Source of the DNA: Chryseobacterium binzhouense
GTDB lineage: Bacteria; Bacteroidota; Bacteroidia; Flavobacteriales; Weeksellaceae
Direction of reading: 5' to 3'
NCBI RefSeq assembly: GCF_007474545.1
Contig: NZ_VKOG01000001.1
Coordinates: 930,001 to 994,000 of the forward strand
DNA length: 64,000 nt
The notes below the pieces were generated by a model. The model worked only from the letters and a program-made list of their open reading frames with translations. It was not told the DNA's origin and searched no databases. A program made the position numbers and the translations under genes. Shown in pieces: positions 585-21,164 of the stretch (the stretch's first letter is position 1; every line of letters starts with the position of its first letter).

Positions 585-629
585 ACTCATAATCAGGTGG
601 TCCCTGGTTCGAGCCCAGGTGGGACCACT
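585..629 (+). pseudogene. Displaced 3' half of a tRNA gene with anticodon CAU (att site of the left-hand element)
   Basis: ACTCATAATCAGG at 585-597 is an anticodon loop (CTCATAA) with the 3' anticodon stem, followed by a good T arm (CCTGG TTCGAGC CCAGG, 603-619) and acceptor strand TGGGACC plus discriminator A at 620-627. The 5' half (acceptor 5' strand, D arm) is missing: the bases before 585 do not form it, and the 5' anticodon stem base at position 584 no longer pairs. This is what remains when an element recombines in the anticodon loop and rebuilds the tRNA at its other end. The intact gene (elongator Met, or Ile read with lysidine) must lie outside the window. Confidence 0.85.
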
Positions 630-671
630 ACAAAAATTCGACAAGCCCCTATTTATGGGGCTTTTTTATTT
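616..671 (+). repeat. Left copy of 56-bp direct repeat (attachment site)
   Basis: This copy starts in the T arm of the tRNA fragment, runs over its 3' end and covers the terminator hairpin. It matches 21020-21075 at 55 of 56 positions (T at 637 against C at 21041). Weaker similarity goes on downstream: CGCTGAAATATA occurs at 684-695 and again at 21085-21096, so both copies carry old tRNA-downstream DNA. Together they bracket the accessory segment. Confidence 0.9.
643..667 (+). terminator. tRNA terminator, left copy
   Basis: AAGCCCC (643-649) pairs with GGGGCTT (657-663) and is followed by a T run; it sits 16 bp after the tRNA 3' end. It is the intrinsic terminator of the original tRNA, duplicated with the att site. 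Confidence 0.85.
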
Positions 672-930
672 GCCAAAATCGCAACGCTGAAATATACGCT
701 TAAACTTCCCCGGAAAAGCCTTGCTGGATTGACTTTGCAAGAATGTGTTTCTTTTTTAAAATAAATATTAAAATGATTATGTGATAATAAAAATTAAGAA
801 GTCATTTTACAAATTTATCTCAGAAATGTGTTTGTCTAAAGAGCATTAAAAAGTTTCCGTTTTCGTCAACTTGCAATATTTCCTTAAATTTCCATGAATA
901 TTTTTACCTTAGCCCTTCCAAAAGTCTTCT

Positions 931-3964: not shown

Positions 3965-4465
3965 ATGAATAAAAGAAAGATCCTTGTCATGGACTTGGAG
4001 ACTACGGGATTAGACCCATTTACAGACCATATAGTGAGTGTTGCTGTATCTGTTGAAAAAGGAAAGGGATTTAATATCGTTCTCCCTTTTTATAAAAATA
4101 AAGCCAAGGCTAAAGAGTTCTTACAGCCATTGCTTCCGATACTTGAAGATGAAACGATTACCAAAGTCTTTTCCAATGCTAAGTTTGAATTAAAATTCTT
4201 TCATCAGTACGGAATTGAAATTAAAGGTGAAATCAGGGATACCATGATTTTAGATTATCTCTTGGATCCTAACCGTAAAACCCACGGACTAAAGGAAATT
4301 TCAGAACGACATCTGCAATACCACCAAATTTCCTTTGAAGAAATGTTAAACGGTAGGGTTATCACCGAAGTTCCGAAAGAAGAACTCTCCAAATATGCCT
4401 GTGAAGATACAGACCTGACTTTACAATTGTATCATTACTTAACTCAACAACTAAATCATAACTAA
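3965..4465 (+). CDS. DNA polymerase I-type 3'-5' exonuclease domain as a separate protein
   Basis: A 166-residue DEDDy exonuclease. Exo I is DLETTG at residues 10-15, Exo II is SNAKFELKFF (Glu at the place where most PolA proteins have Asp), a further Asp lies in RDTMILDYLL, and Exo III is YACED near residue 145 with the Tyr-x3-Asp signature. The length is that of the proofreading domain alone; there is no polymerase part and no 5'-3' nuclease. The polymerase domain follows as its own gene one base after this stop, so the two are made together and presumably assemble as one proofreading polymerase on the element's DNA. The separation is not a frameshift artefact: the stop, the gap and the new ATG are clean. 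Confidence 0.88.
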   Translation: MNKRKILVMDLETTGLDPFTDHIVSVAVSVEKGKGFNIVLPFYKNKAKAKEFLQPLLPILEDETITKVFSNAKFELKFFHQYGIEIKGEIRDTMILDYLLDPNRKTHGLKEISERHLQYHQISFEEMLNGRVITEVPKEELSKYACEDTDLTLQLYHYLTQQLNHN

Positions 4466-4466: not shown

Positions 4467-5738
4467 ATGGATATAGCTATTAATCAGTTAGAACACGATT
4501 TAATACGTGTTCTCGCTAAAATCGAATTCAGTGGTGTAAAAATAGACACGAAGAAATTAGAACGTGTAGAACATCAGCTATTGAATCGACTACAAATGAC
4601 CACTGAAAAAATATCAGAAATCGCGGGATCAGAAATTAATCTTAACAGCAATGAACAGCTGAGTACTCTGCTTTTTGAAACGTTAGAAATTCAACCGAAA
4701 GTTACTACCAAAGGTAAATCGGGATTGATTTCTGTTGATAAATCACACTTAGAGAAACTGAAAGAGGATCACGAAATTGTATCACTCATCTTGGATTATA
4801 GGAAAACCAACACTCTGTTAAACTTCTGTAATCAATTGAAAGAAATTCACCCGAAAACAAAAAGACTTCATTGCAACTTAAATCAGATAGAAACAGCTAC
4901 AGGACGATTTAGCTGTAGTAATCCGAATTTACAGAATATTCCTAATGTAAAACTTAAGGACAACGAAACTGATGAACTTAAAATTATCGCTTCCAAGTTC
5001 AGAGAGGTTTTTATTGCTGAAAAAGGATGTTTATTGATTGGTGCAGATTATTCGCAGATTGAACTTAGGGTTATGGCTGAGATAAGTCAGGACAGCTTTT
5101 TACTCCATGCTTATAATAATGGTATCGATATTCACGAACTAACGGCTTCTAAAGTGTTTAATTGTAAAATTTCGGAAGTAAGCGAAGAACAGAGGAAGAT
5201 TGCCAAAACAATCAACTTTGGACTAATCTACGGAATGTCAGCGGTAGGTTTAGCGGAATCTCTTACAGCAATTACAAAGAAACATCATTTTAAGGAAGAT
5301 GCTGAAAAAATGATGTCAGATTATTTTGCCGAGTTCAATGGAGTAAAATCCTGCTTGGAAGGATTAGTGGATTATGCAGATCATCATGGTTATTCCAGAA
5401 CATTGTTCGGACGTACTAGGCCAATTCCCGAACTGTCTTCTAATGATTTGAGTACTCGAGAGAAAGGAAAACGCCTTGCAATGAATTCTCCTGTACAGGG
5501 AAGCGCAGCCGATATTATCAAAATGGCAATGGTTAACTGTGACAAAGCGATGTCAGCAAAGAGGTTGCATTCAAAAATCATACTTCAAATTCATGATGAA
5601 CTACTTTTTGAAGTCCCTGAAGATGAAGTCGCGATTATGGAAAAAGTGATAAAATATGAGATGGAGAATGTTGTAAGGCTGTCTATACCTCTTACAATAG
5701 AGCTTGGTAAAGGTGAAAATTGGGCAGTAGCTCATTAA
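4467..5738 (+). CDS. Family A DNA polymerase, polymerase domain only
   Basis: A 423-residue protein equal in extent to the thumb-fingers-palm part of Pol I. Motif A is ADYSQIELRVMAEIS (catalytic Asp), motif B RKIAKTINFGLIYG (Arg, Lys, Phe, Tyr in the expected spacing), and motif C QIHDELLFEV (His-Asp-Glu); the upstream TATGRFSCSNPNLQNIP is the template-binding segment. The N-terminal residues 1-130 form the thumb. It has neither exonuclease nor 5'-3' nuclease domains; the exonuclease is the preceding gene. All catalytic residues are intact, so it should be an active polymerase serving element replication rather than the host polA, which is normally a single protein of about 900 residues. Confidence 0.93.
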   Translation: MDIAINQLEHDLIRVLAKIEFSGVKIDTKKLERVEHQLLNRLQMTTEKISEIAGSEINLNSNEQLSTLLFETLEIQPKVTTKGKSGLISVDKSHLEKLKEDHEIVSLILDYRKTNTLLNFCNQLKEIHPKTKRLHCNLNQIETATGRFSCSNPNLQNIPNVKLKDNETDELKIIASKFREVFIAEKGCLLIGADYSQIELRVMAEISQDSFLLHAYNNGIDIHELTASKVFNCKISEVSEEQRKIAKTINFGLIYGMSAVGLAESLTAITKKHHFKEDAEKMMSDYFAEFNGVKSCLEGLVDYADHHGYSRTLFGRTRPIPELSSNDLSTREKGKRLAMNSPVQGSAADIIKMAMVNCDKAMSAKRLHSKIILQIHDELLFEVPEDEVAIMEKVIKYEMENVVRLSIPLTIELGKGENWAVAH

Positions 5739-5770
5739 ATAATATTATTAATTCTAAAATCATAAAAAAA

Positions 5771-7664: not shown

Positions 7665-7720
7665 ACCACAACAAAACTATGTCGCAAAATTTACAGTTAG
7701 CAATCTAAAAAATTAAAATA

Positions 7721-8968
7721 ATGGCAACATTTAAATTTATCCTGAGTAAGCTTGATTATCAGAAGAAAAAGAAAAGTCCTGAATCCCTTCTGATGCTGAG
7801 GTATACTCATAAAAAGAAGACAACTCATTTTTCAACTCATAAGAATATTGACGAAAAATACTGGGATGAAAGAACACAAATGGTAAAGAGAAGTTATCCC
7901 GGTTCTGACAGATTTAATATTTACATTAAGGGAATTCGTCAGAAAGTGGAAGATATCGTTAATGGTATGCTGATCGATGGCAATGATCCTACCACAGATT
8001 ATGTAAAGTCTGTTTACAATGCTGATAAGAATGGAACGGAGAAAAAGAAGCAATATACGTTCTTTGAATATGCTGAAAAGTACTTAGAAAATGGTAAAAA
8101 TCGTCTTACAGCAAGTACGATTAAAAGCTATCGTACTGCTTTACATAAGCTTGAAGATTATCAGGACTATAGCAGAAACAAATTAGACTGGATGAGTTTT
8201 GATATTGATTTTTATTATGACTTCATGGATTTTTATACAGGAATTGAAGGGCTGACTAATAATGGTTTTGGTAAAATCATTAAAAATCTTAAAGCGATTT
8301 TAAACTCAGCAACTGAGGACGGTTATAACACTTTCACAGGCTACCAGCATAAAAATTTTAAAACCGTAAGAGAAGACGTCAATAATATTTACCTCAGCGA
8401 AGAAGAGATTTCCAAGCTTTTAAAATTGGATTTAAGTAGTGATAAAACAATGGAAAGAACGAGGGATTTATTTGTCTTCGGTTGTTATACAGGGTTGAGG
8501 TTTAGTGATTTTAGCCAAGTAAAGCAGGAACATATTGTTGGTGATATTCTTAGAATCAAAACCATAAAGACGAGTGAATGGGTAAATATTCCGATTCTTC
8601 CAGCAGTAAGGGAGATCATGGATAAGTACAAAGATAATCCGAACAATCTTCCGAAATCTGTATCTAATCAAACAATGAATAGAAATTTGAAAGTGTTGGG
8701 TGACTTGGCAAAAATTAATGATAAAATTCTAAAAATTAGAAATAAAGGTAAAGAAAGGATTGAGGAAAATCTTTTAAAATATGAAATGATTTGTACTCAT
8801 ACAGCTAGAAGATCTTTTGCTACTAATATGTTTAAAAGGGGTGTTCCAACAAGGGTAATTATGAATATCACGGGGCACAGAACTGAAAAAGCTTTTAATA
8901 GCTATATCAAAATATCGCAGGATGAGAATGCAGAATTGTTAAAAGAATACTTCAGTAAATCAGCATAG
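7721..8968 (+). CDS. Tyrosine recombinase / integrase (complete)
   Basis: A 415-residue integrase of the type common in Bacteroidota elements. Residues 1-100 are the arm-binding domain (FKFILSKLDYQ, then YWDERTQMVK), 110-205 the SAM-like core-binding domain, and 225-410 the catalytic domain. The catalytic set is complete: Arg260 (GCYTGLRFSD), His360 and Arg363 (HTARRSF), His386 (GHRT) and Tyr395 (FNSYIKI). It should catalyse integration and excision of the surrounding element at the tRNA-derived repeats. It sits 7 kb inside the left repeat instead of at an end, which hints that this segment was assembled from more than one element. A good terminator follows. Confidence 0.95.
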   Translation: MATFKFILSKLDYQKKKKSPESLLMLRYTHKKKTTHFSTHKNIDEKYWDERTQMVKRSYPGSDRFNIYIKGIRQKVEDIVNGMLIDGNDPTTDYVKSVYNADKNGTEKKKQYTFFEYAEKYLENGKNRLTASTIKSYRTALHKLEDYQDYSRNKLDWMSFDIDFYYDFMDFYTGIEGLTNNGFGKIIKNLKAILNSATEDGYNTFTGYQHKNFKTVREDVNNIYLSEEEISKLLKLDLSSDKTMERTRDLFVFGCYTGLRFSDFSQVKQEHIVGDILRIKTIKTSEWVNIPILPAVREIMDKYKDNPNNLPKSVSNQTMNRNLKVLGDLAKINDKILKIRNKGKERIEENLLKYEMICTHTARRSFATNMFKRGVPTRVIMNITGHRTEKAFNSYIKISQDENAELLKEYFSKSA

Positions 8969-8984
8969 ATTTTTACATTAATAG

Positions 8985-9502: not shown

Positions 9503-9521
9503 GAGGCGGTTTTACCGCCTC
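9490..9521 (-). terminator. Intrinsic terminator facing the minus strand
   Basis: GAGGCGGT (9503-9510) and ACCGCCTC (9514-9521) form a perfect 8-bp stem with a three-base loop. On the + strand it is preceded by an A run (9492-9500), so read on the minus strand it is a GC-rich hairpin followed by T residues. No minus-strand gene is evident to its right up to 9931, so it may end an untranslated RNA made from the iteron/leader region. A second T run downstream on the + strand (9539-9548) makes two-way use possible. Confidence 0.65.
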
Positions 9522-9595
9522 CAGTCAGTTAACAGTCATCTTTTTTTTAATTATGGTTTTTAATTGAACTGTTTAATTATGTCATTAATTATAAG

Positions 9596-9727
9596 TGCAT
9601 GATTGGTGAAAATGTAATGCATATTTGGTAAGAATGAAATGCAAATTTGGTGATATTGAAATGCAAGATCGTTCAGATTGAAATGCAATATTAGGTGAAT
9701 TAAAATGCACAATTGGGTATAAAGTAG
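9596..9727 (+). repeat. Iteron array: six tandem 22-bp repeats
   Basis: TGCA begins a repeat at 9596, 9618, 9640, 9662, 9684 and 9706, exactly 22 bp apart each time. The approximate consensus is TGCAWATTTGGTGATATTGA followed by AA; copies 1-3 agree best, copies 4 and 5 are divergent in the middle, and copy 6 is partial. A 22-bp step is two helical turns, as in plasmid iteron origins bound by winged-helix initiators. The array lies about 200 bp before a gene for a protein with two winged-helix-like units. I take this as a replication origin and/or the autoregulatory operator of that gene. Confidence 0.85.
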
Positions 9728-9931
9728 TACTGTTACTCCCTGAAAAAAGTAATAATGGTAGTAGTTTTTACGAAAGTAGTCATATTAAACCTCTCAGATA
9801 CAACAAAGGAATCGAGTGGTACTACAATGAAAAAGGACATGAATTTTTTGAGTCTGTAGTAAATTAAACCTCTTGAACTCACTACTACTATCAGTAAGGA
9901 AACAGAATTTATCACATAAAAAAATAGTACA
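9728..9931 (+). promoter_or_regulatory. Leader region with repeated GTAGT and TTAAACCTCT motifs
   Basis: Between the iterons and the next gene, GTAGT or its complement ACTAC occurs at least eight times (for example 9724-9728, 9759-9763, 9776-9780, 9856-9860 and the ACTACTACTA run at 9881-9890). Two longer direct repeats, GTAGT, three or four bases, then TTAAACCTCT, start at 9776 and 9856, 80 bp apart. The region has no credible gene. It is probably regulatory DNA for the downstream gene or part of the origin. Confidence 0.5.
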
Positions 9932-10570
9932 GTGAAAAGATATACTGAAGGGAACTTTGAAGATGAGTTCGCACCGCATTTAGGATTTACAAAGAAATTG
10001 ATAATAGAAATTCCTTTTGAAATCTTATCAAATAAAGAATTGTCCCTAAATGAAAAGCTGATGTTGGGCTTGGATTTTTCCCTGAAAAAGAAACTCGGAT
10101 TTAATCAAATGACAAATAAAAAGATTGGGGAATTACTTAATTTACATCCTAATATTGTTGGGAACTGTCGGAAAAATCTCGTAGAAAAGCAATATTTACT
10201 TAAGAAGGGAAGACAATATTTTTTAACTGACCACTATAAAAATATTCAGGAGTTAGAAATTAATGATGCTGAAAGAGTAGAAAATAAAGACAGGAGAAAC
10301 ATAAAGCTACCTATTGAAATTTACTCCCATAAAGATTTAAAAACAGGAGAAAAACTGCTTTGGGGAGAGTATAATTCAATTAGCAAAGGAATTATAGAGT
10401 ATTTTGCAAAAAGGGAGTATACTGCAAAACGATTAGAGGTAAGTGTGGAAAGCATTTCAAATTGGACAAAAGCTCTTTATGAAAAAGGTTTACTTGAGGA
10501 ATACAAAGTTATAAGTGGATACTGCGTTAGGCGAAAAATAATTATTACTTGCAGCTTTGATAAAAAGTGA
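9932..10570 (+). CDS. Two-unit winged-helix protein, candidate iteron-binding replication initiator
   Basis: A 212-residue protein starting at GTG; no better ATG exists in frame. It has an internal duplication: residues 23-97 and 124-205 share the order I-(P)-x-E-I-x-S-x-K-x-L-x-x-x-E-K-L, a variable helix, a Thr-x-K-x-x-x-L helix, a recognition-like helix and a K-x-L-x-E-K-x-x-L wing start (NKKIGELLNLHPNIVGNCRK in unit 1, TAKRLEVSVESISNWTKALY in unit 2). Each unit looks like a winged helix as found in phage replication proteins and Rep_3-type initiators, which also bind 22-bp iterons as two winged-helix domains. The iteron array lies just upstream. Function as initiator or iteron-binding repressor is inferred; direct family membership is not shown. 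Confidence 0.7.
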   Translation: MKRYTEGNFEDEFAPHLGFTKKLIIEIPFEILSNKELSLNEKLMLGLDFSLKKKLGFNQMTNKKIGELLNLHPNIVGNCRKNLVEKQYLLKKGRQYFLTDHYKNIQELEINDAERVENKDRRNIKLPIEIYSHKDLKTGEKLLWGEYNSISKGIIEYFAKREYTAKRLEVSVESISNWTKALYEKGLLEEYKVISGYCVRRKIIITCSFDKK

Positions 10571-10890
10571 AATTAAAATACAAAACTGGTGCTTTAAAAT
10601 GCTCCTTTATATAAACATTGTTTTTAACAAAGTAGATTAATTTATAACTGGGTTTGATGCCAGACACCCAAATTGAAATAAAACCCGATTTTTGAACCGA
10701 GAACACTACTCAAATTAAGTTTTATCCTTATTGAGATTGAAGAATATTGAATTGTTATTAAGGTTAAAACATAAAAATGTTGTTTGAAACTGTTAAAATT
10801 AATAGCTTTACAACAGTAAAAAAAACAAATTATATAAGATTAGAAATATTTAAAAATTAAATAAACATATTACATTTCGCAAACTGACGT
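10571..10890. other. AT-rich intergenic DNA
   Basis: About 320 bp with no supportable gene on either strand. I see no clear promoter or terminator apart from the structured element that begins at 10891. Confidence 0.5.
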
Positions 10891-11010
10891 CTGTCTTTGA
10901 AAGGTCGAAAATTCAAAAGTACAACAGGATAAAGTTTAGCAAAATGTTCAGGCTTGGGCTTGGGCATTGCTTTACTTTGTTGTACAGGGCTTCGACCCCC
11001 TCAAAGACAG
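10891..11010. repeat. 120-bp imperfect palindrome with GC-rich loop
   Basis: Three nested arms pair in order: CTGTCTTTGA plus GGTCGAA (10891-10909) with TTCGACC plus TCAAAGACAG (10991-11010); GTACAACA (10919-10926) with TGTTGTAC (10978-10985); and AAAG/GCAA with TTGC/CTTT further in. The apical loop repeats GGCTTG twice (10951-10962). It is richer in G and C than its surroundings. The fold suggests a structured RNA leader, a mobile palindromic element of REP/MITE type or a remnant recombination site. No transposase or reverse transcriptase lies nearby. Confidence 0.75.
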
Positions 11011-11038
11011 GTAGAGATAATGTTTCAAGCCTGTTTTT
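10949..11038 (+). terminator. Alternative terminator-like hairpin overlapping the palindrome
   Basis: CAGGCTTG (10949-10956), in the loop of the palindrome, can instead pair with CAAGCCTG (11026-11033), which is followed at once by a T run. The two folds share bases and exclude each other, the usual layout of an attenuator. The lipoprotein start lies about 80 bp further on. Confidence 0.4.
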
Positions 11039-11118
11039 TGTTTTCATATATCATTACGGGTTTCAGTAAGGAATATCAGATAAAAGTCTATAAGATTGAA
11101 AACCTAATAAATAATAAA

Positions 11119-11766
11119 ATGAAAACGAAATTTTCTACATTACTACTTATTCTATTTACTTCATTAGCCCTCATCAACTGCAATAAACAATCAACCAATA
11201 ATGAATTAGATACCTCATATCTCAATGAAGATGGAACAGAAAAATTTTTAGTCGAAAAAAATAAGTTCAGTAATTTCATTGTATTAAGCAGTTCGATAGG
11301 AAGAAATAACAATCCTGTATCTACACTATATGCATTCAAAGGCATTCTAAAAAATAATACCAAAAATATTTACAAAACTGCTACTATTGAAGGAGAAGTT
11401 ATTCTTGTTCTTGATAATGGGAATGAACTTAATTGCAGAAGTATGTCTGATTCTTTAGATCCCGTCTTGAGTTCTATTGCAAATTCCAAAACTAAGTACA
11501 ACTGGAAACCAAATGAAAACTGGGTAATAGATGAGTTGAAATCATGTATTATTCCTGTAGAATATTTCAGTTATCCAGTGAAACAGGTATTTACCCAGTA
11601 CTATATCAATACAGAAGACCAAATCAATGATACCTCCGAAAGAATACTGGTGTCTCAAAGAGATGTAACAGACCGATGGTTAAAAGCAAAAAAGAAAGCA
11701 GAAAAAAATATTCCAGACTCTGATGATTATTCATTTAGTATCTCAGAGTATCTTGAAACCAAATGA
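11119..11766 (+). CDS. Lipoprotein of unknown function (215 aa)
   Basis: I place the start at ATG 11119 and not at the earlier in-frame 10954, because the protein then begins with a lipoprotein signal: MKTKFSTLLLILFTSLAL followed by the lipobox LINC with Cys21, and the upstream codons fall inside the palindrome. The mature part (residues 22-215) is polar, with a region of alternating strands around FKGILKNNTKNIYKTATIEGE and a charged C-terminus. No known domain is recognised. It should be anchored in a membrane, facing the periplasm or the surface. It is isolated, between the replication module and the defence island, and shares no operon with either. Confidence 0.75.
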   Translation: MKTKFSTLLLILFTSLALINCNKQSTNNELDTSYLNEDGTEKFLVEKNKFSNFIVLSSSIGRNNNPVSTLYAFKGILKNNTKNIYKTATIEGEVILVLDNGNELNCRSMSDSLDPVLSSIANSKTKYNWKPNENWVIDELKSCIIPVEYFSYPVKQVFTQYYINTEDQINDTSERILVSQRDVTDRWLKAKKKAEKNIPDSDDYSFSISEYLETK

Positions 11767-11930
11767 TGCTATCAAAATACAATAGCGTTATTGTTATATA
11801 GACACTATCATATTCAATATGAAAAAATTAGTAATTGCTTTTTCTCAATGTATTTTTGGGTATTCAAATTATATATTCATGAAGAACTAATTTTATTCTT
11901 AATTTAGTATGTAATATTTAAAAAAATCTC

Positions 11931-13544
11931 ATGCAGTTAAATCCTAAACAATATGACATTACTCTTCAAAATTTTTTATCTTCCTGGAGTCTGGAACGAA
12001 TAAAAGTCATGACAATTGATGAATATGCTGACTTGTCAAATCACGATTCATTGTGCTACTGGTTAGAGTATGGGACTAAAAGTCTAGGAGAGATTGGTGG
12101 TATGCAAAGCAATAAATTTGAATTGTGGAAACCACAAGCAGGTGAAAATAAGCAATTCAAGGATGGTCGATTTACTATGGAAGGTAAATATGCTTACAAG
12201 AGTAAACGTGGGGCTACATTAAATCAAGCTTTTGAAACTATAAGAAATTTAATTATTGATATTGTACATAATTCTTTAGAAGAGAATTGGGAGGCTATAG
12301 TTGATAATGAATTTCATGCAATTGTTAAATGGAAACTTGCATGTCTCTTTTCAAAAAAGCAGCTACTTTCAATATATAGTAGAAGAGCATTACTATCTAT
12401 TGCTAGAGGACTGGGTTATTCCTTTACCAATGGGGATAATATTTTAGTTATTCAACAGGCAATTATCAGCAAAAAAACTAATGATGAAGATATTGTAGAT
12501 TTTGCGTATAGAGTTTACTCAGAATTTGCAGAACGTGATAAGACCGATAAAAGGAATTATTTTATAATTGGTAGTAAGTATAGCGACGATGAAGGCTACG
12601 ATACAGTTTCTGTTATAGATAAATTTATTGATAATCGTTGCATCGCAATAGGCTGGTTAGATTGGTTAGATTTTAGTAGCTATATGGGAAAGAAGCATAA
12701 AGAAGTTGACGACTTTGTTGAGAATAATTGGAACAGTGGCTCGCCAGCTATTAGTAAAATCAAAAGTTACTTTCGACATTTATCTGATATGAAAGCAGGT
12801 GATATTATAGCTGTCAAATCTCAAGGAGCCTACGGAAAATTGACAATAATTGCATATGCACAGGTGGTAGAAAGGGAAGGGGGAATTTATTGGCATGATG
12901 ATAGCCTTTTAGGACATCATATTAATGTTGAATTTTTGGAGGTGGGTTTTTCTCATGAAACTGGAGAAACATATGCAGGCACAGTTCATAAGCTAACTGC
13001 TGATAAGGATGGTGAGAGGTTTAGTAAAGTATTCGGATGGCACGCTGCTGATTGGCAAGAGGATAGTGAGGAAGAGGATGAATACGGAGAGATTGTTGTT
13101 TTTGATGAACCTGATGATGAAGGATATAGAGTTAAAATAGAAACAAGTTTTCAAAGAAGTGCAATAGCTTCAGTCACAGTAAACCGTATACACAATAGGA
13201 TTCAAAATCGTTTTGTTGAATATTTGAATACACAATATCCAGATGATGCATGTTCGGGAGAAAAAAGATATATCGATGCCAAACGGATTACTGCAGATAA
13301 AATCTTTATATATGAAATAAAGCCTTTTACTAGTGCATATTCTTGTATTAGAGAAGGTTTAGGTCAGTTGTTTGATTATATGTATCGAGAACATACTAGT
13401 AAAGAAAAAAGGCTTGTTATAGTGGGCCCGAACGAACCTAATCCAACAGATGAAAGATTCCTGAAACATATTAGAGATATTTTAAAAATACCATTCTCTT
13501 ATATTGCTTTTAATGAATCAGAAATGATAGCAAAGGAATATTAG
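11931..13544 (+). CDS. Putative modification-dependent or type II-like restriction protein (McrB-N, EVE-like, PD-(D/E)xK nuclease)
   Basis: A 537-residue three-part protein. Residues 1-190 (FLSSWSLERIKVMTIDEYAD, then FCYWLE-type LCYWLEYGTKSLGEIGG) match the N-terminal domain of McrB-like restriction proteins. Residues 208-350 (NYFIIGSKY, then CIAIGW, then MKAGDIIAVKSQ) have the strand pattern of an EVE/PUA-like modified-base-binding domain. Residues 405-530 form a PD-(D/E)xK nuclease with Asp449, Glu462-x-Lys464 (FIYEIKP) and REGLGQLFDY. It has no ATPase. I infer a nuclease that senses modified DNA, or the nuclease partner of the methyltransferases downstream. It is the first gene of the defence island. 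Confidence 0.75.
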   Translation: MQLNPKQYDITLQNFLSSWSLERIKVMTIDEYADLSNHDSLCYWLEYGTKSLGEIGGMQSNKFELWKPQAGENKQFKDGRFTMEGKYAYKSKRGATLNQAFETIRNLIIDIVHNSLEENWEAIVDNEFHAIVKWKLACLFSKKQLLSIYSRRALLSIARGLGYSFTNGDNILVIQQAIISKKTNDEDIVDFAYRVYSEFAERDKTDKRNYFIIGSKYSDDEGYDTVSVIDKFIDNRCIAIGWLDWLDFSSYMGKKHKEVDDFVENNWNSGSPAISKIKSYFRHLSDMKAGDIIAVKSQGAYGKLTIIAYAQVVEREGGIYWHDDSLLGHHINVEFLEVGFSHETGETYAGTVHKLTADKDGERFSKVFGWHAADWQEDSEEEDEYGEIVVFDEPDDEGYRVKIETSFQRSAIASVTVNRIHNRIQNRFVEYLNTQYPDDACSGEKRYIDAKRITADKIFIYEIKPFTSAYSCIREGLGQLFDYMYREHTSKEKRLVIVGPNEPNPTDERFLKHIRDILKIPFSYIAFNESEMIAKEY

Positions 13545-13564
13545 ATAATGACCAATATAATCAT

Positions 13565-13852
13565 ATGGATACAACTGATTTAAAATTGAAATTTGAATTT
13601 CAACTAGCAAAAAATGTTTCGGAAATGAAAAAGATTCATTCATTTAAGCAATTGCAAAGAATGTTAGATGAATATGGGTATTTTGAAGGGGCGACAAAAT
13701 TGATAGATGGTCATGGGACCTCTGGACTAGCGGACTTGCTAATGGCTGGTAGAGAAGATTTATCAATAGAGCATTTAGCTTTATCTGAAGAGTTTCAGTT
13801 ATTGTTTAATGAAAATCAATTAAAGAAGTGTAAACAAAAGCTTGGTTTTTGA
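13565..13852 (+). CDS. Small protein of unknown function in the defence island (95 aa)
   Basis: A 95-residue soluble protein following the nuclease gene after 20 bp and preceding vsr by 54 bp, all on the same strand. The first half is helical with alternating charges (FQLAKNVSEMKKIHSFKQLQ); the centre has the glycine-rich stretch LIDGHGTSGLADLLMAGRED. I recognise no family. The spacing suggests co-transcription with the nuclease, so it may be an accessory or control protein, but no feature shows this. Confidence 0.6.
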   Translation: MDTTDLKLKFEFQLAKNVSEMKKIHSFKQLQRMLDEYGYFEGATKLIDGHGTSGLADLLMAGREDLSIEHLALSEEFQLLFNENQLKKCKQKLGF

Positions 13853-13906
13853 TCTACTTTTAATCTATCAGGATCTATATTACTTTTCATAATCAAAATT
13901 AACAGC

Positions 13907-14326
13907 ATGAAAGATAAGTTTTCAAAAGAAAAGAGAAGTGAGATAATGAGCAAAATTAAAAAGACAAATACGAAGCCTGAAATGATTGTTCGTAAGTTTC
14001 TCTTTAGTCAAGGATTGAGATATAGAATTCATAATAAGAAATTAATTGGAAATCCAGATATCGTGCTTCCAAAATATAAAACAATAATTTTTGTAAATGG
14101 TTGCTTTTGGCACGCTCATAATAACTGCAAATTGAATAGGATGCCTAAAAGCAATACAGATTATTGGATACCAAAGATATTGAGAAATGTTGAAAGGGAT
14201 GAGATAAATAGAGTTGAGTTAGAAAAGTTAGGTTGGAATGTGATTACAGTTTGGGAATGTGAACTAGGCGTTAAAAAAAGAGAAGATACATTAATAGAAT
14301 TATATAATAAGATTAAAACTGAATAA
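13907..14326 (+). CDS. vsr: Very-short-patch repair endonuclease (Vsr)
   Basis: A 139-residue protein with the full Vsr pattern: RSEIMSKIKKTNTKPEMIVR at the N-terminus, then YRIHNKKLIGNPDIVLPKYK with the catalytic Asp, FVNGCFWHAHNNC (metal and zinc ligands), and WNVITVWECEL at the end. The length is normal for the family. Vsr nicks 5' of the T in T:G mismatches that arise when 5-methylcytosine deaminates inside a methyltransferase recognition site. Its presence fits the two cytosine-5 methyltransferases that follow, and it supports the view that they methylate the host genome continually. A 271-bp gap with a hairpin separates it from them. Confidence 0.93.
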   Translation: MKDKFSKEKRSEIMSKIKKTNTKPEMIVRKFLFSQGLRYRIHNKKLIGNPDIVLPKYKTIIFVNGCFWHAHNNCKLNRMPKSNTDYWIPKILRNVERDEINRVELEKLGWNVITVWECELGVKKREDTLIELYNKIKTE

Positions 14327-14521: not shown

Positions 14522-14620
14522 ATGAAGAATAAAAATCTTAGTCAAGATAAAACGCTTATCTTTGTTGGTTATAATTTAGGAATAGAGGTTGAAGAGTATG
14601 AGAAATATAAAAAGAGATGA
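14522..14620 (+). CDS. Possible 32-residue leader peptide overlapping the methyltransferase start
   Basis: ATG at 14522 opens a 32-codon frame (MKNKNLSQDKTLIFVGYNLG and twelve more residues) ending in TGA at 14620, 23 bp past the ATG I use for the methyltransferase in another frame. It could couple translation into the methyltransferase gene, or be a chance frame. No ribosome-binding site stands out, as is usual in this group. Confidence 0.25.
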   Translation: MKNKNLSQDKTLIFVGYNLGIEVEEYEKYKKR

Positions 14621-15719
14621 CTTTAACGATAAAAACTTTACTGCAAATGATAAGGATACTTTTGAAAAAAGTGCTGAATCAAAGATTAATGCAATTAGTT
14701 TCTTCTCAGGGGCAGGAGGCTTAGATATAGGTGCTCAGTTGGCTGGAGTAAATGTTATTTCAAGTTTAGATTTTGACAAAGATAGTGTTGAAACAATGAG
14801 GAGTAATAAAATTTTTAAAAATTCTACTCACTTTCATGAGGATATAAGAAATGTTTATGGCTCTAATTACTCAAATATATTAAAAGAAAATAGTTCTGAT
14901 AAGCTAATATTGATTGGAGGACCACCTTGCCAGCCTTTTTCGAAGGCAGGATATTGGGCTAATAATAGATTGGGAGATAAAGATCCACGAAATATGATTG
15001 GTGAATATTTAAGAATTATTTCTGAATTGCTTCCAGACGGATTTTTGTTAGAAAACGTTGAAAGTATTTTACATCCCAAGAATAAAATTGCTGTTGAGCA
15101 AATCCAAGAATTTGCAGACTTACTGGGATATAATTTAATTGTTTATAGGGCTAATGCATTAGATTTTGGTGTTCCTCAAAAAAGAAAAAGAGTTTTTTTT
15201 ATTGGTACAAGAAAAAAAATTAAAGGAGAGCCTCAAAAGACGCATGGTTCTCAATTGGAGATATTTGCTAAGAATGATGTAAAGCCCTATGAAAAGGTTG
15301 TTAATTGGATTGGTAAGTATGATGAAGAAAAATATTTTGAAAAAGAAGAGTTGACTATTGGTAAAACGTATGATGAAGCATTAAAAATGATACCACCTGG
15401 CGAAAACTATTTTGCTTTAACAGAGCGTAATGGAAATCCAAACCCAATGTTTAAGGCAAATACAAGATTTTGGAACTTTCTGCTAAAGCTTCATCCTGAA
15501 TTGCCTTCTTGGACAATAGCTGCTCAGCCAGGACCTTGGGTAGGGCCATTTCATTGGAATGATAGGAGGTTGCGAGTTCCAGAGATTGCAGCTATACAAA
15601 CCTTTCCAGAAGATTATATTTTCAAGGGAAGTCGTAGATCAATTCATAAGCAAATTGGTAATGCCGTGCCACCATTATTAGGAAAGTCTATGGTGGAATT
15701 TTTAATTAAAAACATTTAG
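14598..15719 (+). CDS. DNA cytosine-5 methyltransferase 1
   Basis: I prefer ATG 14598 to the TTG at 14589. The protein (373 residues) has the ordered motifs of C5 methyltransferases: I, FFSGAGGLDIGAQLAG; IV, GGPPCQPFSKAGYW with the catalytic Cys; VI, ENVES; VIII, PQKRKRVFFIG; X, KQIGNAVPPLLGKS. The target recognition region lies between about residues 225 and 320. It transfers a methyl group from S-adenosylmethionine to carbon 5 of cytosine in a specific site. It is the first gene of a five-gene operon; the next gene, a second C5 methyltransferase, starts 8 bp after its stop. The recognition sequence cannot be read from the protein. Confidence 0.95.
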   Translation: MRNIKRDDFNDKNFTANDKDTFEKSAESKINAISFFSGAGGLDIGAQLAGVNVISSLDFDKDSVETMRSNKIFKNSTHFHEDIRNVYGSNYSNILKENSSDKLILIGGPPCQPFSKAGYWANNRLGDKDPRNMIGEYLRIISELLPDGFLLENVESILHPKNKIAVEQIQEFADLLGYNLIVYRANALDFGVPQKRKRVFFIGTRKKIKGEPQKTHGSQLEIFAKNDVKPYEKVVNWIGKYDEEKYFEKEELTIGKTYDEALKMIPPGENYFALTERNGNPNPMFKANTRFWNFLLKLHPELPSWTIAAQPGPWVGPFHWNDRRLRVPEIAAIQTFPEDYIFKGSRRSIHKQIGNAVPPLLGKSMVEFLIKNI

Positions 15720-15727
15720 TTAGTAAT

Positions 15728-16792
15728 ATGAACCCTAAAATCGTAAGTGTTTTTTCAGGAGTAGGAGGTATAGATGAAGGATTTCACAAAGCAGGATTTG
15801 ACGTAGTTTATGCCTCAGATATATGGGATGTTGCTTGTAAGTCCTTAAAAGAGAATTTTCCAAAAACAGAGGTTGTATGTGATTCAATAGAGAATGTGAA
15901 TTTTAGTGAAATTCGTGAAAAGTATGGTGCTATTGATGGTCTTGTAGGAGGACCGCCATGCCCTCCATTTTCTAAATCACGATTTTATAGGACTGAAAAA
16001 AAGAGAGGTATAAATGATGATGATGGATCTATGACTGTCTCAAATTATTTTAGAGCAGTAGAAGAATTGAATCCATCGTTTTTTTTATTTGAGAATGTTC
16101 ACGGATTTATCTATAAGCCTCATAAGGATGCTCTTGAGTTTGTTGAAGCTGAGTGTGAGAGGCTTGGGTATAACTTATATTATGACGTATTAAATGCCGC
16201 AGATTATGGCATTCCTCAAACTAGAATGCGATTCATAGCAATTGGAGTTAAAAAAGGAATGAAAGAGTTTGTATTTCCTGAGAAAACAAACTTTGAAAAA
16301 GCAACACCCCGTTGGGTTACTGCGGGTGATGTATTATTTGATATTGATTTTGATTTAGATGAAGATAGTAAAATGCAAGCAGGATCAAAGCATAAGCATT
16401 TGTTAAAAGAAATTCCTCCTGGAGATAATTATCTTTTTTTTACAAAAGAAAGAGGACATGAGAATCCAGCTTTTAAATGGAGATCAAGATATTGGTCTTT
16501 TTTACTAAAGCTTTCACCAGATAGACCGTCTTGGACAATTCAGGCTAGCCATTCTAATAATATGGGACCTTTCCATTGGAAGAATAGGTTTTTAAGAATT
16601 TCGGAAATTAAAAGATTACAATCGTTTGATGATGAATATATTATTTTAGGCTCCTTCAAGGATCAATGGAGGCAAGTGGGAAATGCTGTTCCTCCTAAGT
16701 TAGCTTTAATTTTGGCAAGTCAGATAAAATCTTTATATTTTGAAGATGTTTTGGAGGTTGTTAAAAAAAATAATGTAAAAGAAAAAGCTTAA
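15728..16792 (+). CDS. DNA cytosine-5 methyltransferase 2
   Basis: A 354-residue C5 methyltransferase with motif I VFSGVGGIDEGFHKAGF, motif IV GGPPCPPFSKSRF (Pro instead of the usual Gln after the catalytic Cys), motif VI ENVHG, motif VIII PQTRMRFIAIG and motif X RQVGNAVPPKLA. The C-terminal part is close to the first methyltransferase (PSWTIQAS here, PSWTIAAQ there; GPFHWK here, GPFHWN there), so the two are old duplicates. Paired C5 methyltransferases often modify the two strands of an asymmetric site, which would suit a system that must protect both strands. The next gene follows after 7 bp. Confidence 0.94.
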   Translation: MNPKIVSVFSGVGGIDEGFHKAGFDVVYASDIWDVACKSLKENFPKTEVVCDSIENVNFSEIREKYGAIDGLVGGPPCPPFSKSRFYRTEKKRGINDDDGSMTVSNYFRAVEELNPSFFLFENVHGFIYKPHKDALEFVEAECERLGYNLYYDVLNAADYGIPQTRMRFIAIGVKKGMKEFVFPEKTNFEKATPRWVTAGDVLFDIDFDLDEDSKMQAGSKHKHLLKEIPPGDNYLFFTKERGHENPAFKWRSRYWSFLLKLSPDRPSWTIQASHSNNMGPFHWKNRFLRISEIKRLQSFDDEYIILGSFKDQWRQVGNAVPPKLALILASQIKSLYFEDVLEVVKKNNVKEKA

Positions 16793-16799
16793 TTAAAAA

Positions 16800-18896
16800 A
16801 TGATAAGATATGAAGCTAATTTAGACGGTACTTTAGTTATAGGAGAGCCGTTTACTGATTTTAGTGAGTTGGAGATATTAAAGGATATTTTCGATGAATT
16901 AGGCTGGAAAAATTCATTGCGTGGAGACGGAAGAGGTGGGTATTATGTATTCGATATTGAATTGAGGAACGAAAAAAAAATCAGACTACATATTTATCTA
17001 AAGAGAGTGACCTTTGGAGGACGAGAGTCAAGACCTAAAGAAAAAAGAGTTCAATTTTCTGCTGCATTAGAAAGAAAAGGGTTTTTAAATTATAATGAGG
17101 AAACAGAAAATGAATTTAGTCTTATATTAGGTATCTATAAAAATAAGAATTATTCTGACGTTATAATTTGTGCATGGGACATACATGACTGGGGTCATAA
17201 TTTTGGAAGAGCCTTCAATTGTTTCGTTGATGTGACTACTATATCAAAAGCTTTGAAAAATGGTTTTGCCCAACATAAAACATCTAAGGGGCAGATTGTT
17301 TGTTGTTTTAGACCACAAGAGTTTAAATACTATTTAGATAATCGTAAAATATTACATTCTGAAATTCAAAAAGATATTCACAGTGAATATTTTGAAAAAA
17401 TGGAAGAATTAATAACTGATCTGAAAAGTTATTCTGATGAAATTCCTAATTATCCAGATTTATTTCAAGTAACAATTGATATTCTAAAAAATCATAATGG
17501 AATTACGAATATTAATAGAATAGAACTTGAGGCAGGTGATAGTTTAAAACTAACAGATGAAGCAAGATTTAAAATTCATAATCATAATGAAGGTTTTAGA
17601 ACTGAATTAGGATATCAGTTGGCCTGGGCTAGATTTTATTTAAAAAAAGCAGGATTAATATCTAGTCCTAAAAGAGGGATATGGGAATTGACTAATAGTG
17701 GATGGAATCAAATTGTTAATAAAAGCTTTATAATGAAAGCTGCCACTCAAAGAGAAATTCAAAATGAGATTAATCAAGATATACAGTTTGAAGATGATAT
17801 TGAGATAGAGACAAATATTGACAATCAAATAATAGAAAATCCTTTTAATTCAAATGATGTTGACATTAGAACAAAGACAATGTCTTTAGATCTTCTTATT
17901 AAGCGTTTAAGAACAGATGCGATTGATATGAACACAAGCTTTCAGAGAAAAGCAAATTTGTGGGATATAACTAAGCAAAGCCGATTAATTGAGTCAATTT
18001 TAGTTCGATTTCCTCTACCCGCATTTTATTTTGATGGTTCTGATGATGATCATTGGCTTGTAGTTGATGGGCTTCAGAGATTGAGTTCTTTGCATAATTA
18101 CGTTAATTTGGAGGCTTTTGGATTAGAAAACTTAGAATTTTTAACTCAGTTTACAGGAAAGAAATTTTCAGAATTGCCTCCTTCTCTACAGCGTAGGATT
18201 GAAGAGTTTGAAATAACTTCTTATATTATTGCTGCAGGTACTCCAAAAGTTTTGAAATTTAATGTGTTTAAAAGAATTAATACCGGAGGACTAACGCTAA
18301 CTACTCAGGAGATTAGAAATGCATTATATCAAGGCAAAGCTACAGAAATAGTGCAGAGACTTGCTGAATTACGATCATTCAAGGTTGCCACAGCCCACAC
18401 AATATCGGAAGATAGAATGTTGGATCAAGAGTTTGTTACTAGGTTTTTAGCATTTTATATCTTTTCGTATGATAGTTATAATGCTGATTTGGATTCTTTT
18501 CTTAACAATGTCATGGATAGTATAAGTTCAGGTGTTATAAATTTTTCTGCGGAAGAAATAATATTAGATTTTGATAAGGCTATGAATGCAGCTTTTGCTA
18601 TTTTTCAAAGTCATGCTTTTAGAAAAAGATATGAAGTCAATGGAAGAAGAAAGCCTATAAATAAAGCTTTATTTGAAGTGTGGTCAGTTCTTCTTAGTAA
18701 GCTTGAGCAAGACGAATTAGATTTTTTAATAATAAATAAAAATCTTGTTGTAGAAAAGTTTATTAACTTATTAAATACAGACGATTACTTTAACCAATCT
18801 ATTACATCTGCTACAGGGGATAAATCTAGGGTTAAAAAGCGTTTTACAGAGATTAAAAAAATTATTGAATCAACATTATTGGAATATGATTACTAA
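16800..18896 (+). CDS. Fusion protein: unknown N-terminal domain, Mrr-N winged helix, DUF262
   Basis: A 698-residue protein in three parts. Residues 1-195 are an unrecognised alpha/beta domain with conserved-looking acidic and aromatic patches (IICAWDIHDWGHNFGRAFNC). Residues 215-305 match the Mrr N-terminal winged helix (GYQLAWARFYLKKAGLISSP then KRGIWELT). Residues 355-690 are DUF262, the N-terminal domain of GmrSD-type proteins, with the hallmark VVDGLQRLSSL (423-431 region) and FKRINTGG (490-497). There is no HNH/DUF1524 nuclease domain at the C-terminus, where GmrD-type proteins have it. The ATPase gene overlaps its end by 11 bp. I infer a DNA-sensing or nucleotide-using core of a defence complex. 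Confidence 0.8.
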   Translation: MIRYEANLDGTLVIGEPFTDFSELEILKDIFDELGWKNSLRGDGRGGYYVFDIELRNEKKIRLHIYLKRVTFGGRESRPKEKRVQFSAALERKGFLNYNEETENEFSLILGIYKNKNYSDVIICAWDIHDWGHNFGRAFNCFVDVTTISKALKNGFAQHKTSKGQIVCCFRPQEFKYYLDNRKILHSEIQKDIHSEYFEKMEELITDLKSYSDEIPNYPDLFQVTIDILKNHNGITNINRIELEAGDSLKLTDEARFKIHNHNEGFRTELGYQLAWARFYLKKAGLISSPKRGIWELTNSGWNQIVNKSFIMKAATQREIQNEINQDIQFEDDIEIETNIDNQIIENPFNSNDVDIRTKTMSLDLLIKRLRTDAIDMNTSFQRKANLWDITKQSRLIESILVRFPLPAFYFDGSDDDHWLVVDGLQRLSSLHNYVNLEAFGLENLEFLTQFTGKKFSELPPSLQRRIEEFEITSYIIAAGTPKVLKFNVFKRINTGGLTLTTQEIRNALYQGKATEIVQRLAELRSFKVATAHTISEDRMLDQEFVTRFLAFYIFSYDSYNADLDSFLNNVMDSISSGVINFSAEEIILDFDKAMNAAFAIFQSHAFRKRYEVNGRRKPINKALFEVWSVLLSKLEQDELDFLIINKNLVVEKFINLLNTDDYFNQSITSATGDKSRVKKRFTEIKKIIESTLLEYDY

Positions 18897-20061
18897 AATA
18901 CAAGTTCAAAATTTTAAATCCTTAGAAAACCTCTCTTTGGATTGCAGTTATTTAAATGTGCTAACAGGACTTAATGGTATGGGTAAATCCTCAATAATTC
19001 AAATCCTTTTATTATTGAGACAATCTTATGAAAGAGGATTACTTCAAGAAGGATTAGCTTTGAATGGAGATTTAGTGCAAATTGGACTGGTTAAAGATGC
19101 TTTATACGAATTTGCTGATATTGAAGAACTAAATTTCAAGCTTGATTTTTTTGTCAATAATCAAGAAATTAAAAAAGACTGGCGTTTTATAAGAGATGTA
19201 AATGACATTGATAATCCAGAAGAAGAAAGGACATATTCAGGCTCTGACTTTATGCCTTATTCTACAGAAGAAGATGCCGATAAATTTAGAGATTTAAAAG
19301 ATCTAAATATACTTTCCCTCTTTAAGCATAATGCTTTCAAATATTTAAATGCTGATAGATGGGTTAAAAATGAATATGAAACATCAGATTTTAATGTTGT
19401 AAGAAATAAAAACTTAGGAAAGCACGGTCAATATACTGCTCATTATTTGGATTATTTCGGAACGCAAAAAGTATCTGATGAATTAGTTTTTGAGGGTACT
19501 GATAATAATGAATTAGCATTTCAGGTATCTGCTTGGATGAGTTATATAAGTCCTGGTACAAAAGTTAAAACAGAGAGGGTTTCTGGTTCTGAATCTATAA
19601 AATTGAGATATGTATTTGAAGAAGATGGAATTAATACAACTGAATTGAAGCCATTAAATGTTGGCTTTGGTATTACTTATATTTTACCAGTTCTTGTTGC
19701 GCTATTAAGTGCCAAAAAAGGGGATATTCTTGTGATTGAGAATCCTGAATCTCATGTTCATCCAAAGGCTCAATCCATAATAGGGCAGTTAATTGCAAAA
19801 GTTGCTACAATTGGTATTCAGATTTTTGTAGAAACTCATAGTGATCATTTATTGAATGGAATTCGAATAGCTGTAAAGAATGGTGTATTTAATGAATCGA
19901 TTAAATTATTCTTTTTTGACAGAATAAAATCTAAAGAAAAAGCTAAAATATATTCTACTTATCAATCACCTGTAATAGAACAGGATGGTAATGTCAGTTT
20001 CTGGCCTGATGATTTTTTTGATCAAGCAGTAAAAGATTTAAATTATTTATTTGATATATAA
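18886..20061 (+). CDS. AAA/ABC-type ATPase, DUF3696-like (RecF/OLD ATPase class)
   Basis: I start at ATG 18886 (MITKIQVQNFKSLENLSLDC), which gives the usual strand before the nucleotide fold; the earlier frame start adds seven unlikely residues. Walker A is GLNGMGKSS at about residues 28-36; the Walker B region is GDILVIENPESHVHP; the H-loop region is IFVETHSDHLLNG. The C-terminus (YSTYQSPVIEQDGNVSFWPD then DFFDQ) is typical of DUF3696 ATPases. The protein has 391 residues. It overlaps the DUF262 gene by 11 bp and the next gene follows after 3 bp, so the three are made in step. ATPases of this class drive sensing in many anti-phage systems. Confidence 0.88.
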   Translation: MITKIQVQNFKSLENLSLDCSYLNVLTGLNGMGKSSIIQILLLLRQSYERGLLQEGLALNGDLVQIGLVKDALYEFADIEELNFKLDFFVNNQEIKKDWRFIRDVNDIDNPEEERTYSGSDFMPYSTEEDADKFRDLKDLNILSLFKHNAFKYLNADRWVKNEYETSDFNVVRNKNLGKHGQYTAHYLDYFGTQKVSDELVFEGTDNNELAFQVSAWMSYISPGTKVKTERVSGSESIKLRYVFEEDGINTTELKPLNVGFGITYILPVLVALLSAKKGDILVIENPESHVHPKAQSIIGQLIAKVATIGIQIFVETHSDHLLNGIRIAVKNGVFNESIKLFFFDRIKSKEKAKIYSTYQSPVIEQDGNVSFWPDDFFDQAVKDLNYLFDI

Positions 20062-20064
20062 TTT

Positions 20065-20886
20065 ATGGAGATTTTTTTAAACGAATCTTCATTAGATTCT
20101 CAATATAAAAATGAGTATGAATTTGCGGAAGCTATAAGATTCTTTGTAAGTTCAATATCGAGAATAAGTAAACACTCTGAAACACAGCGAAAAACATTTA
20201 ACAGTGATTATTTGTTTTATCGTATAGGTTTTTCGGATACTATGTTAGGGTCAATGCTTAAAAAAAATCATGCAATAAATTCTCTTTTTATTCAAAATCT
20301 TAATCTTATTAGTCCCAAAATATGGCAAAAAGAACAACAGCACGATTCAGATATTTTATATGAATATAACGATATTCCATATCAAGGTTTTTCTCCTGCT
20401 GAATTAGCTGAACGTAAATTACAGAATAATGATTTAAAAGGATTTCTCTTAAACTTTGTCAATTCTGAGTTTAAGGATTTTGATAATATCAAAGTTATAA
20501 AAAATAAAGTTGATACTATTGAAATTGACTGTGTAGTTTATGAATCTAATGTAGAGGATTGGCTTATAAAAAATGGATTTTATAATCCTGATGATCAATA
20601 TGATATTAAATCCGGAATAGCTCCAAGAGATTCACAAACAATACTCAAAAACGAAAAGGTGTTTGTTAAAACTAATCATAAAAGAAATAAGGGAAGGGTT
20701 GTATATAAGAAAATTGGAACTAATCAATTATGGGTAGTAGATGGATCTTCTAAGCATGCTGGAGTAAAAGCGCACATTGAAGTTTTTGATGAGAATACTA
20801 GAAAACATTTAGGTACATCACTATACTTTGAGGATAGCTTAAATACTAATTTTAAGGTTGATAATAGAGAAATATTTTTAGAATAA
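20065..20886 (+). CDS. Defence-operon protein with E3-RNase-like C-terminus (candidate effector)
   Basis: A 273-residue protein, last gene of the defence operon. Residues 1-160 are unrecognised, helical and polar. The C-terminal 75 residues (NKGRVVYKKIGTNQLWVVDG then HIEVFDENTRKHLGTSLYF) resemble the closing part of colicin E3/cloacin-type ribonuclease domains, where a Tyr/Trp strand is followed by an H-x-E-(V/L)-(F/Y)-D-x(n)-HLG signature. This is a resemblance seen by eye; the usual DP-x-TG tail is not preserved. If right, the protein would be a toxic effector held in check by the ATPase/DUF262 proteins. It could also be an unrelated DNA-binding or adaptor protein. Confidence 0.6.
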   Translation: MEIFLNESSLDSQYKNEYEFAEAIRFFVSSISRISKHSETQRKTFNSDYLFYRIGFSDTMLGSMLKKNHAINSLFIQNLNLISPKIWQKEQQHDSDILYEYNDIPYQGFSPAELAERKLQNNDLKGFLLNFVNSEFKDFDNIKVIKNKVDTIEIDCVVYESNVEDWLIKNGFYNPDDQYDIKSGIAPRDSQTILKNEKVFVKTNHKRNKGRVVYKKIGTNQLWVVDGSSKHAGVKAHIEVFDENTRKHLGTSLYFEDSLNTNFKVDNREIFLE

Positions 20887-21019: not shown

Positions 21020-21075
21020 CAGGTGGGACCACTACAAAAACTCGACAAGCCCCTATTTATGGGGCTTTTTTATTT
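21020..21075 (+). repeat. Right copy of 56-bp direct repeat (attachment site)
   Basis: Matches 616-671 with a single difference (21041). It starts within the T arm of the tRNA (CAGGTGGGACC), so only a dozen tRNA bases are left here, against 45 in the left copy. DNA to the right has the look of ordinary chromosome. The two copies define a 20.4 kb segment. Confidence 0.9.
21047..21071 (+). terminator. tRNA terminator, right copy
   Basis: AAGCCCC (21047-21053) and GGGGCTT (21061-21067) with a T run. It is identical to the terminator at 643-667 and insulates the chromosome from element transcription. Confidence 0.85.
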
Positions 21076-21164
21076 CCCAATCATACGCTGAAATATAAAG
21101 CATATTCAGATACCACAATTTTACATCATCAGACTTGGTTAAAGCATCTTTTCACTTGGTGAAA

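Follow-up and report, generated by a model that had tools for sequence, protein, structure and literature searches.

Can a toxin take the place of the nuclease in a restriction-modification system? The question is raised by a five-gene cassette in a 64,000-nucleotide stretch of the Chryseobacterium binzhouense genome (RefSeq assembly GCF_007474545.1, contig NZ_VKOG01000001.1, positions 930,001 to 994,000; hereafter the window), in which two genes for C5-cytosine DNA methyltransferases, M1 and M2, directly precede three genes matching the PADLOC models NsnA, NsnB and NsnC (14598-20886, all on the forward strand; Table 1). A sequence-only reading had described the five genes as an operon with gaps of 8, 7, -11 and 3 bp, coordinates that reproduce from the sequence, and as a candidate undescribed defence system. 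The novelty of the last three genes is ruled out by their PADLOC matches, which identify them as the known trio of Nsn, the PADLOC and DefenseFinder name for what we take to be the Menshen system. Menshen was reportedly described by Millman et al. in 2022. The trio is thus known, and the form seen here, linked to methyltransferases and with a reader extension on NsnA, is a variant of it. We consider it fairly probable that this variant is a restriction-modification-like defence whose restriction arm is the Menshen trio; the evidence presented below suggests a system that distinguishes own from foreign DNA by its methylation and responds with a toxin in place of DNA cutting.

The cassette genes and their recurrence

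Both methyltransferases, recognised as such in the earlier reading, carry motifs I, IV, VI, VIII and X as judged by C5 motif patterns, and are 36% identical to each other. The third gene had been read as a fusion of Mrr_N and DUF262; Pfam finds both (residues 220-303 and, as GmrSD_N/DUF262, 380-510), together with a domain that had been overlooked, MTaX1 (PF20296, 'Methylase-associated X1'; residues 62-179, E 3.5e-26). The PADLOC NsnA model covers residues 318-693, and the C-terminal part from about residue 345 to 693 forms a DUF262/GmrSD_N ParB-like core. GmrSD_N is the only such match, with no DUF1524/HNH or other nuclease domain found by Pfam. We propose NsnA as site reader and switch. NsnB, which starts at the ATG at 18886 with a TTG 21 bases before it, combines AAA_15/AAA_21 with DUF3696 (PF13175, PF13304, PF12476) and has the Walker A motif GLNGMGKS, in agreement with the DUF3696-like OLD-type ATPase posited earlier. 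A distant second DUF262/NsnA-like gene lies elsewhere in the same genome (C9:59884-60876; 27% identity over residues 358-681).

The E3-ribonuclease-like label given to the fifth gene found no confirmation in sequence, profile or model searches. NsnC has no relevant match in Pfam, NCBIfam or PDB sequences (the best in Pfam is a sub-threshold phage tail family, E 0.055), its C-terminal profile has none among PDB sequences at E 10, Pfam returns no E3-type cytotoxic domain at E 0.1, PADLOC offers nothing in favour of one, and the AlphaFold model is poor, with a mean predicted local distance difference test score (pLDDT) of 47.5. The C-terminus of the AlphaFold2 model contains five strands, four of which lie within blocks of mean pLDDT 60-84, and a YoeB toxin domain is present in 6 of 69 proteins scanned at the NsnC position (69 out of 96; proteins from the first 40 neighbourhoods were excluded, as were six that are truncated or duplicates). 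The C-terminal domain of NsnC is probably a ribonuclease toxin.

PMC10952713 describes Menshen as combining a predicted OLD nuclease with a DUF262 gene required for phage resistance, and leaves the roles of the parts for later study. Homologues of NsnA, NsnB and NsnC form one operon in the order A-B-C, as judged from PADLOC matches and gene order, and the ptuXYZ operon of 2025, described in PMC11980606 as encoding a DUF262 protein, a PtuA-like ATPase and a PIN'-YoeB protein, is probably the same trio under another name. The main text of PMC11980606 uses none of the terms NsnC, methyltransferase, methylase and methylation, and the count for Menshen in that paper is 0. The literature searched, judged by titles and some passages, holds no description of a methyltransferase-linked, extended Menshen, although Li et al. 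2025 (on Menshen domain polymorphism, by its title) may report part of it.

The same gene neighbourhood recurs in two other genera, which fits the earlier view of the five genes as one unit. A scan of an 84,980-genome GTDB collection with an NsnA alignment gave at least 564 confirmed relatives, and two of the best 80 that were kept are full-length: those of Pedobacter yonginense (locus L107) and of a Sphingobacterium metagenome-assembled genome (L108). Both loci have the two methyltransferases, NsnA and NsnB in the order of the window, with identities of 67% (M1), 71% (M2), 56% (NsnA), 52% (NsnB) and 45% (NsnC) in L107 and of 64%, 74%, 50% and 43% for the first four in L108; the NsnA alignments run end to end. 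The fifth gene of L108 (293 aa) has no significant similarity to the NsnC of the window (best E 0.55), and the last gene of the set has thus been swapped, as expected for an effector. Because the order is kept in these two loci the set exists beyond this genome, and is rare but real. Using full-length NsnA, tblastn matched 8 of 59 genomes at E 1e-3, 28 of 297 at 1e-10 and 36 of 395 at 1e-15, counts that include the own genome, come from overlapping samples and contain a few matches to the Mrr_N part only. Outside the window genome none of the matches listed covers the MTaX1 part, which this method can miss: genome G588 has MTaX1, yet its match starts only at residue 332. Searching by family detected MTaX1 in 5 of 395 Bacteroidota genomes (that of the window among them), each time with an adjoining methyltransferase (seen by eye in L069). 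No relative was confirmed by a genome-contig scan with the NsnA N-terminus alone or by an MTaX1 scan of viral contigs, and the extension of locus L139 had no match among plasmids; two other N-terminal extensions were found in 0 of 198 genomes each, an uninformative result as no genome with a known match was included.

Table 1 Positions of the cassette genes and of other features of the left part of the window
Feature	Positions	Strand	Evidence or setting
M1, C5-cytosine DNA methyltransferase, 373 aa	14598..15719	+	PF00145 E 1.8e-53
M2, C5-cytosine DNA methyltransferase, 354 aa	15728..16792	+	PF00145 E 6e-59
NsnA, 698 aa, MTaX1 + Mrr_N + DUF262/GmrSD_N	16800..18896	+	PADLOC NsnA E 5e-137, Pfam
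NsnB, ABC/OLD-class ATPase, DUF3696 tail	18886..20061	+	PADLOC NsnB E 1e-106, Pfam
NsnC, 273 aa, proposed effector	20065..20886	+	PADLOC NsnC E 1.6e-72
Vsr very-short-patch endonuclease	13907..14326	+	TIGR00632 150 bits (cut-off 97.85); Pfam Vsr E 3e-33
537-aa protein	11931..13544		N-terminus matches PADLOC PD-T4-1 (E 2e-19), weakly PDC-S02
Tyrosine integrase	7721..8968		inside repeat-framed 20.4 kb
Family A DNA polymerase	4467..5738		inside repeat-framed 20.4 kb
3'-5' exonuclease	3965..4465		inside repeat-framed 20.4 kb
DUF5906 protein			inside repeat-framed 20.4 kb
Direct repeat, left copy	616..676		61 nt, copies 97% identical
Direct repeat, right copy	21020..21080		61 nt, copies 97% identical

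NsnA extensions and adjoining methyltransferases

Neighbourhoods from Bacteroidota (40), the GTDB scan (80) and viral contigs (50) were pooled; 160 of the 170 have an NsnA core at E 1e-15, and after removal of 18 near-duplicates (142 left) and of 11 loci with less than 700 bp upstream, 131 were counted, excluding the window. These loci are best matches of homology searches, not a random sample, and methyltransferases were detected with 14 seed proteins from the loci themselves, both classes represented; the DUF1156 protein of L166, which we take to be a methyltransferase on the basis of its DPPY motif, was counted as one. A methyltransferase gene abuts NsnA in 10 of 15 loci with an N-terminal extension of at least 150 aa versus 2 of 116 without (Fisher p 6e-10), and in 9 of 13 versus 2 of 86 when only NsnB-containing loci are considered (p 2e-8). 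The fear that methyltransferases and Menshen genes would mostly be found apart is thus borne out for short NsnA but not for the extended form, which we regard as a variant and not a chance neighbour because it recurs. A Pfam scan of 37 abutting genes (at least 200 aa) of the 116 short-NsnA loci gave Eco57I twice, N6_Mtase twice and DUF1156 once, L073 matching both of the first two (25 of 42 families listed). The short class may therefore hold three or four abutting methyltransferases; setting it to 3 or 5 gives p 3e-9 or 3e-8. Independence does not hold for all 15 extended loci (four have the same second domain), and they were therefore also collapsed by N-domain family, which leaves 6 of 10 versus 3 of 116 (p 3e-6; L139 and L224 grouped by eye). 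Restriction genes too occasionally abut short NsnA: among the 37 are three HsdS-like genes, one of BsuBI/PstI type and one of DpnII/MboI type.

Several extensions accompany several kinds of methyltransferase. MTaX1 plus Mrr_N goes with a C5 pair in the window, L107 and L108, and MTaX1 with an N6_N4 methyltransferase in L067; an unnamed second domain goes with a C5 methyltransferase that abuts NsnA in L078, L084 and L223 and does not in L083; another extension goes with a C5 enzyme in L139 and L224 (grouped by eye), DUF7226 with a D12 enzyme in L076 and yet another extension with a C5 enzyme in L227. In a cyanobacterium metagenome-assembled genome (L167, 7155-9143) the NsnA extension is a nucleoside-phosphorylase domain, PNP_UDP_1, which suggests that this slot can also hold a sensor or effector of a different kind.

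Two of these extension families, MTaX1 and the unnamed second domain, are also found on HNH or LlaJI-type restriction proteins adjoining related methyltransferases. The methyltransferases of L067, where MTaX1 is joined to DUF262, and of L068, where it is joined to HNH, are 66% identical and their MTaX1 regions 43%; a relative of M1 in Paracoccus (L260; 53% identity over 347 aa) is likewise paired with an MTaX1-HNH gene. The second domain, present on NsnA of L078, L083, L084 and L223, recurs on the HNH genes of L078, L084 and L223 and on the AAA subunit of the LlaJI-type systems L262 and L263, whose C5 methyltransferases are 56-58% identical to the Menshen-linked ones. Locus L083 (G532, 5589-14187) encodes Vsr, a C5 methyltransferase, AAA_5 and RE_LlaJI proteins and, immediately after these, extended NsnA, NsnB and the protein at the NsnC position; a classical arm and a Menshen arm thus share this locus. 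A minimal form, in which a HEPN protein comes after MTaX1-DUF262, occurs in L067 (G588, 6054-9014), where it abuts a methyltransferase and no adjoining NsnB was found, and on a Hymenobacter plasmid (L261, 4986-7039).

Proposed mechanism and alternatives

We posit that M1 and M2 would methylate cytosines at one target site of the host genome, each enzyme probably serving one strand of an asymmetric site as they do in the LlaJI system, and that the MTaX1-Mrr_N extension of NsnA would read that same site. An unmethylated site on incoming DNA, the presumed sign of foreignness, would change the state of the DUF262 core, a ParB-like nucleoside triphosphatase, and switched NsnA together with the NsnB ATPase would then activate NsnC, a toxin that would halt the cell, probably by cutting RNA. 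The roles suggested in the sequence-only reading, with methyltransferases marking self, the third protein reading DNA, the ATPase relaying and the last acting as toxin, are those that the comparative evidence favours. Plausible, if short of probable, is the wider proposal of a general class of toxin-killing restriction-modification, in which interchangeable target-recognition domains, each with its methyltransferase, sit on the ParB-like NsnA core, and an unmethylated site is signalled to a ribonuclease toxin through an ABC ATPase. If the Menshen sensor slot does take restriction recognition domains, the trigger of methyltransferase-linked forms becomes predictable as the unmethylated site of the adjacent methyltransferase. 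Such a domain swap would link restriction-modification and abortive infection, and a related methyltransferase-reader pair would serve a DNA nuclease in one genome and a toxin-type module in another.

A number of observations weigh against the mechanism or narrow it. The 150-aa cut-off was picked after the lengths had been seen, and 5 of the 15 extended loci have no abutting methyltransferase: in L083 a C5 enzyme is encoded 3.2 kb upstream of NsnA with the AAA_5 and RE_LlaJI genes between, in L155 an Eco57I-type enzyme 1.7 kb upstream, whereas none is found within 6 kb upstream in L159 (whose extension may be a start-site artefact) and L167 or in the 1.7 kb of upstream DNA of L087. In L261 no methyltransferase abuts the MTaX1-DUF262 gene; a C5 methyltransferase lies about 5.4 kb off. 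The LlaJI AAA subunit of L083 lacks the extension domain of its NsnA (E 0.83), and since the two N-termini are unmatched each arm may read a site of its own. The N-extension of NsnA is predicted with low confidence (pLDDT 60), and the MTaX1 of L260 is seen by the Pfam model and missed by a profile built from the window sequence and those of L107 and L108. As most NsnA loci found have no abutting methyltransferase, the system is unlikely to have been triggered by methylation ancestrally. In L107 and L108 genes of a MORC-type arm lie upstream of the methyltransferases (Pfam on L107 only), which may serve that arm instead, and the reader could sense the methylated mark.

That last possibility leads to the strongest rival, a type IV or SspE-like logic in which NsnA would read a methylated or otherwise modified base, with the methyltransferase mark licensing or tuning the response, or with modified phage DNA as the target of attack. 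The DUF262 proteins GmrSD, BrxU and SspE act on modified DNA, according to PMC10952713 and PMC12707154, and two of seven plasmid matches are Mrr_N-like matches on genes annotated as restriction endonucleases. We nevertheless regard this logic as unlikely, given that attacking the mark of its own methyltransferases would kill the host and that both shared extension domains sit on HNH or LlaJI-type proteins adjoining methyltransferases, an arrangement found in ordinary restriction, which relies on methylation to protect self DNA. More doubtful still is a view of the cassette as two independent neighbours in a mobile island, an ordinary Menshen beside the remnant of a MORC- or Vsr-type restriction system, of which the modification half is left: gaps of 7-8 bp, an order kept across three genera, the preference of abutting methyltransferases for long NsnA and the kinship of two extension families with restriction proteins all speak for one unit. 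A guard model, in which Menshen would watch the methyltransferases or a partner restriction enzyme and fire when phage anti-restriction proteins block them, has a precedent in PrrC with a type I system (PMC3506569) and could draw on the further restriction genes adjoining NsnABC in L083, L107 and L108 and on the HsdS-like genes beside short NsnA, but it is very improbable, since a guard does not need a site-reading domain, no classical restriction subunit is found among the Pfam-scanned neighbours in the window, and none was seen by eye upstream of NsnA in L078, L084, L139, L223 and L224 (downstream of it, L078, L084 and L223 do have an HNH gene).

Mobile setting and relation to known systems

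The cassette probably belongs to the cargo of an integrated element, at whose right end it would sit, because it lies in integrase-bearing DNA framed by a direct repeat and because relatives match only from about 21130 rightwards. Two copies of a 61-nt repeat frame 20.4 kb (Table 1), the left one overlapping a tRNA-like 3' half (by eye), with an intact tRNA-Met some 20 kb to the left of it (contig 910122-910196); Rfam gave no match in window positions 1-24000. In four same-genus relatives the 15.5-17.3 kb surrounding the gene next to the right of the element match the window to the right of about 21130 and have no match within 1-21130. That gene occurs in all 15 same-genus genomes searched, a number that includes the own genome. 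The relatives' DNA had no match to 56 kb ending inside the element, so that the left boundary was not placed by comparison. The 537-aa protein, together with the 95-aa gene product that follows it, may constitute another defence unit carried by this element. Related methyltransferase-Menshen sets occur in the viral contigs L223, L224 and L227; in L224 (an IMG/VR contig, 4013-9115) a C5 methyltransferase, extended NsnA, NsnB and an NsnC-position gene have HNH-, terminase- and portal-like neighbours by eye and lie among genes that read as phage morphogenesis genes, a methyltransferase-linked Menshen on a likely prophage. The vsr gene of the window ends 271 bp upstream of M1 and is probably accessory to the cassette. 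Vsr mends T:G mismatches arising from deaminated 5-methylcytosine. It is also encoded near the methyltransferase-Menshen loci L078, L083 and L223 (the last by eye), and has no match in L107 and L108.

Among systems that pair methyltransferases with other arms, MADS is not supported (the MAD3-type ATPase scores 55.6 bits against a cut-off of 420). In DISARM and Druantia a Drm or Dru helicase set adjoins the methyltransferase. Neither of these finds clear support here; M1 and M2 match the PADLOC models DrmMII and DruM along with many other C5 models and no other Drm or Dru model is among the matches listed (at most 25 per protein, eight proteins). The type IV proteins GmrSD, BrxU and SspE share the DUF262 core, whereas NsnA of the window has no DUF1524/HNH on the same protein and comes with its own methyltransferases. 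Compared with classical type II systems, the methyltransferases are present and Vsr adjoins, while Pfam recognises no endonuclease domain in genes 3-5 and NsnC is uncharacterised. PrrC (PMC3506569) likewise couples a ribonuclease-type toxin to a restriction system, but it guards a working restriction enzyme, and none of classical type is recognised in the window cassette. The operons of MORC, helicase and novel-endonuclease genes (PMC2292703) share the cytosine methyltransferases and often Vsr, and such genes adjoin the methyltransferase pair in L107 and L108.

The closest parallels are LlaJI and Menshen itself. LlaJI (PMC1459862) also has two 5-methylcytosine methyltransferases and a DNA-site-reading domain fused to a nucleoside triphosphatase, and LlaJI-type AAA subunits carry a domain that also extends some other NsnA proteins. 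LlaJI differs in its McrB-like GTPase and McrC-like nuclease, in place of which the window combines a toxin-like protein with a ParB-like core and an ABC ATPase; Pfam finds neither AAA_5 (McrB-like) nor RE_LlaJI in the window cassette, both of which are present in L083. With Menshen and ptuXYZ the window shares the DUF262 protein, the ABC/OLD-class ATPase, the polymorphic third protein and their order, and it differs from them in the MTaX1-Mrr_N extension on NsnA and the two C5 methyltransferases directly upstream.

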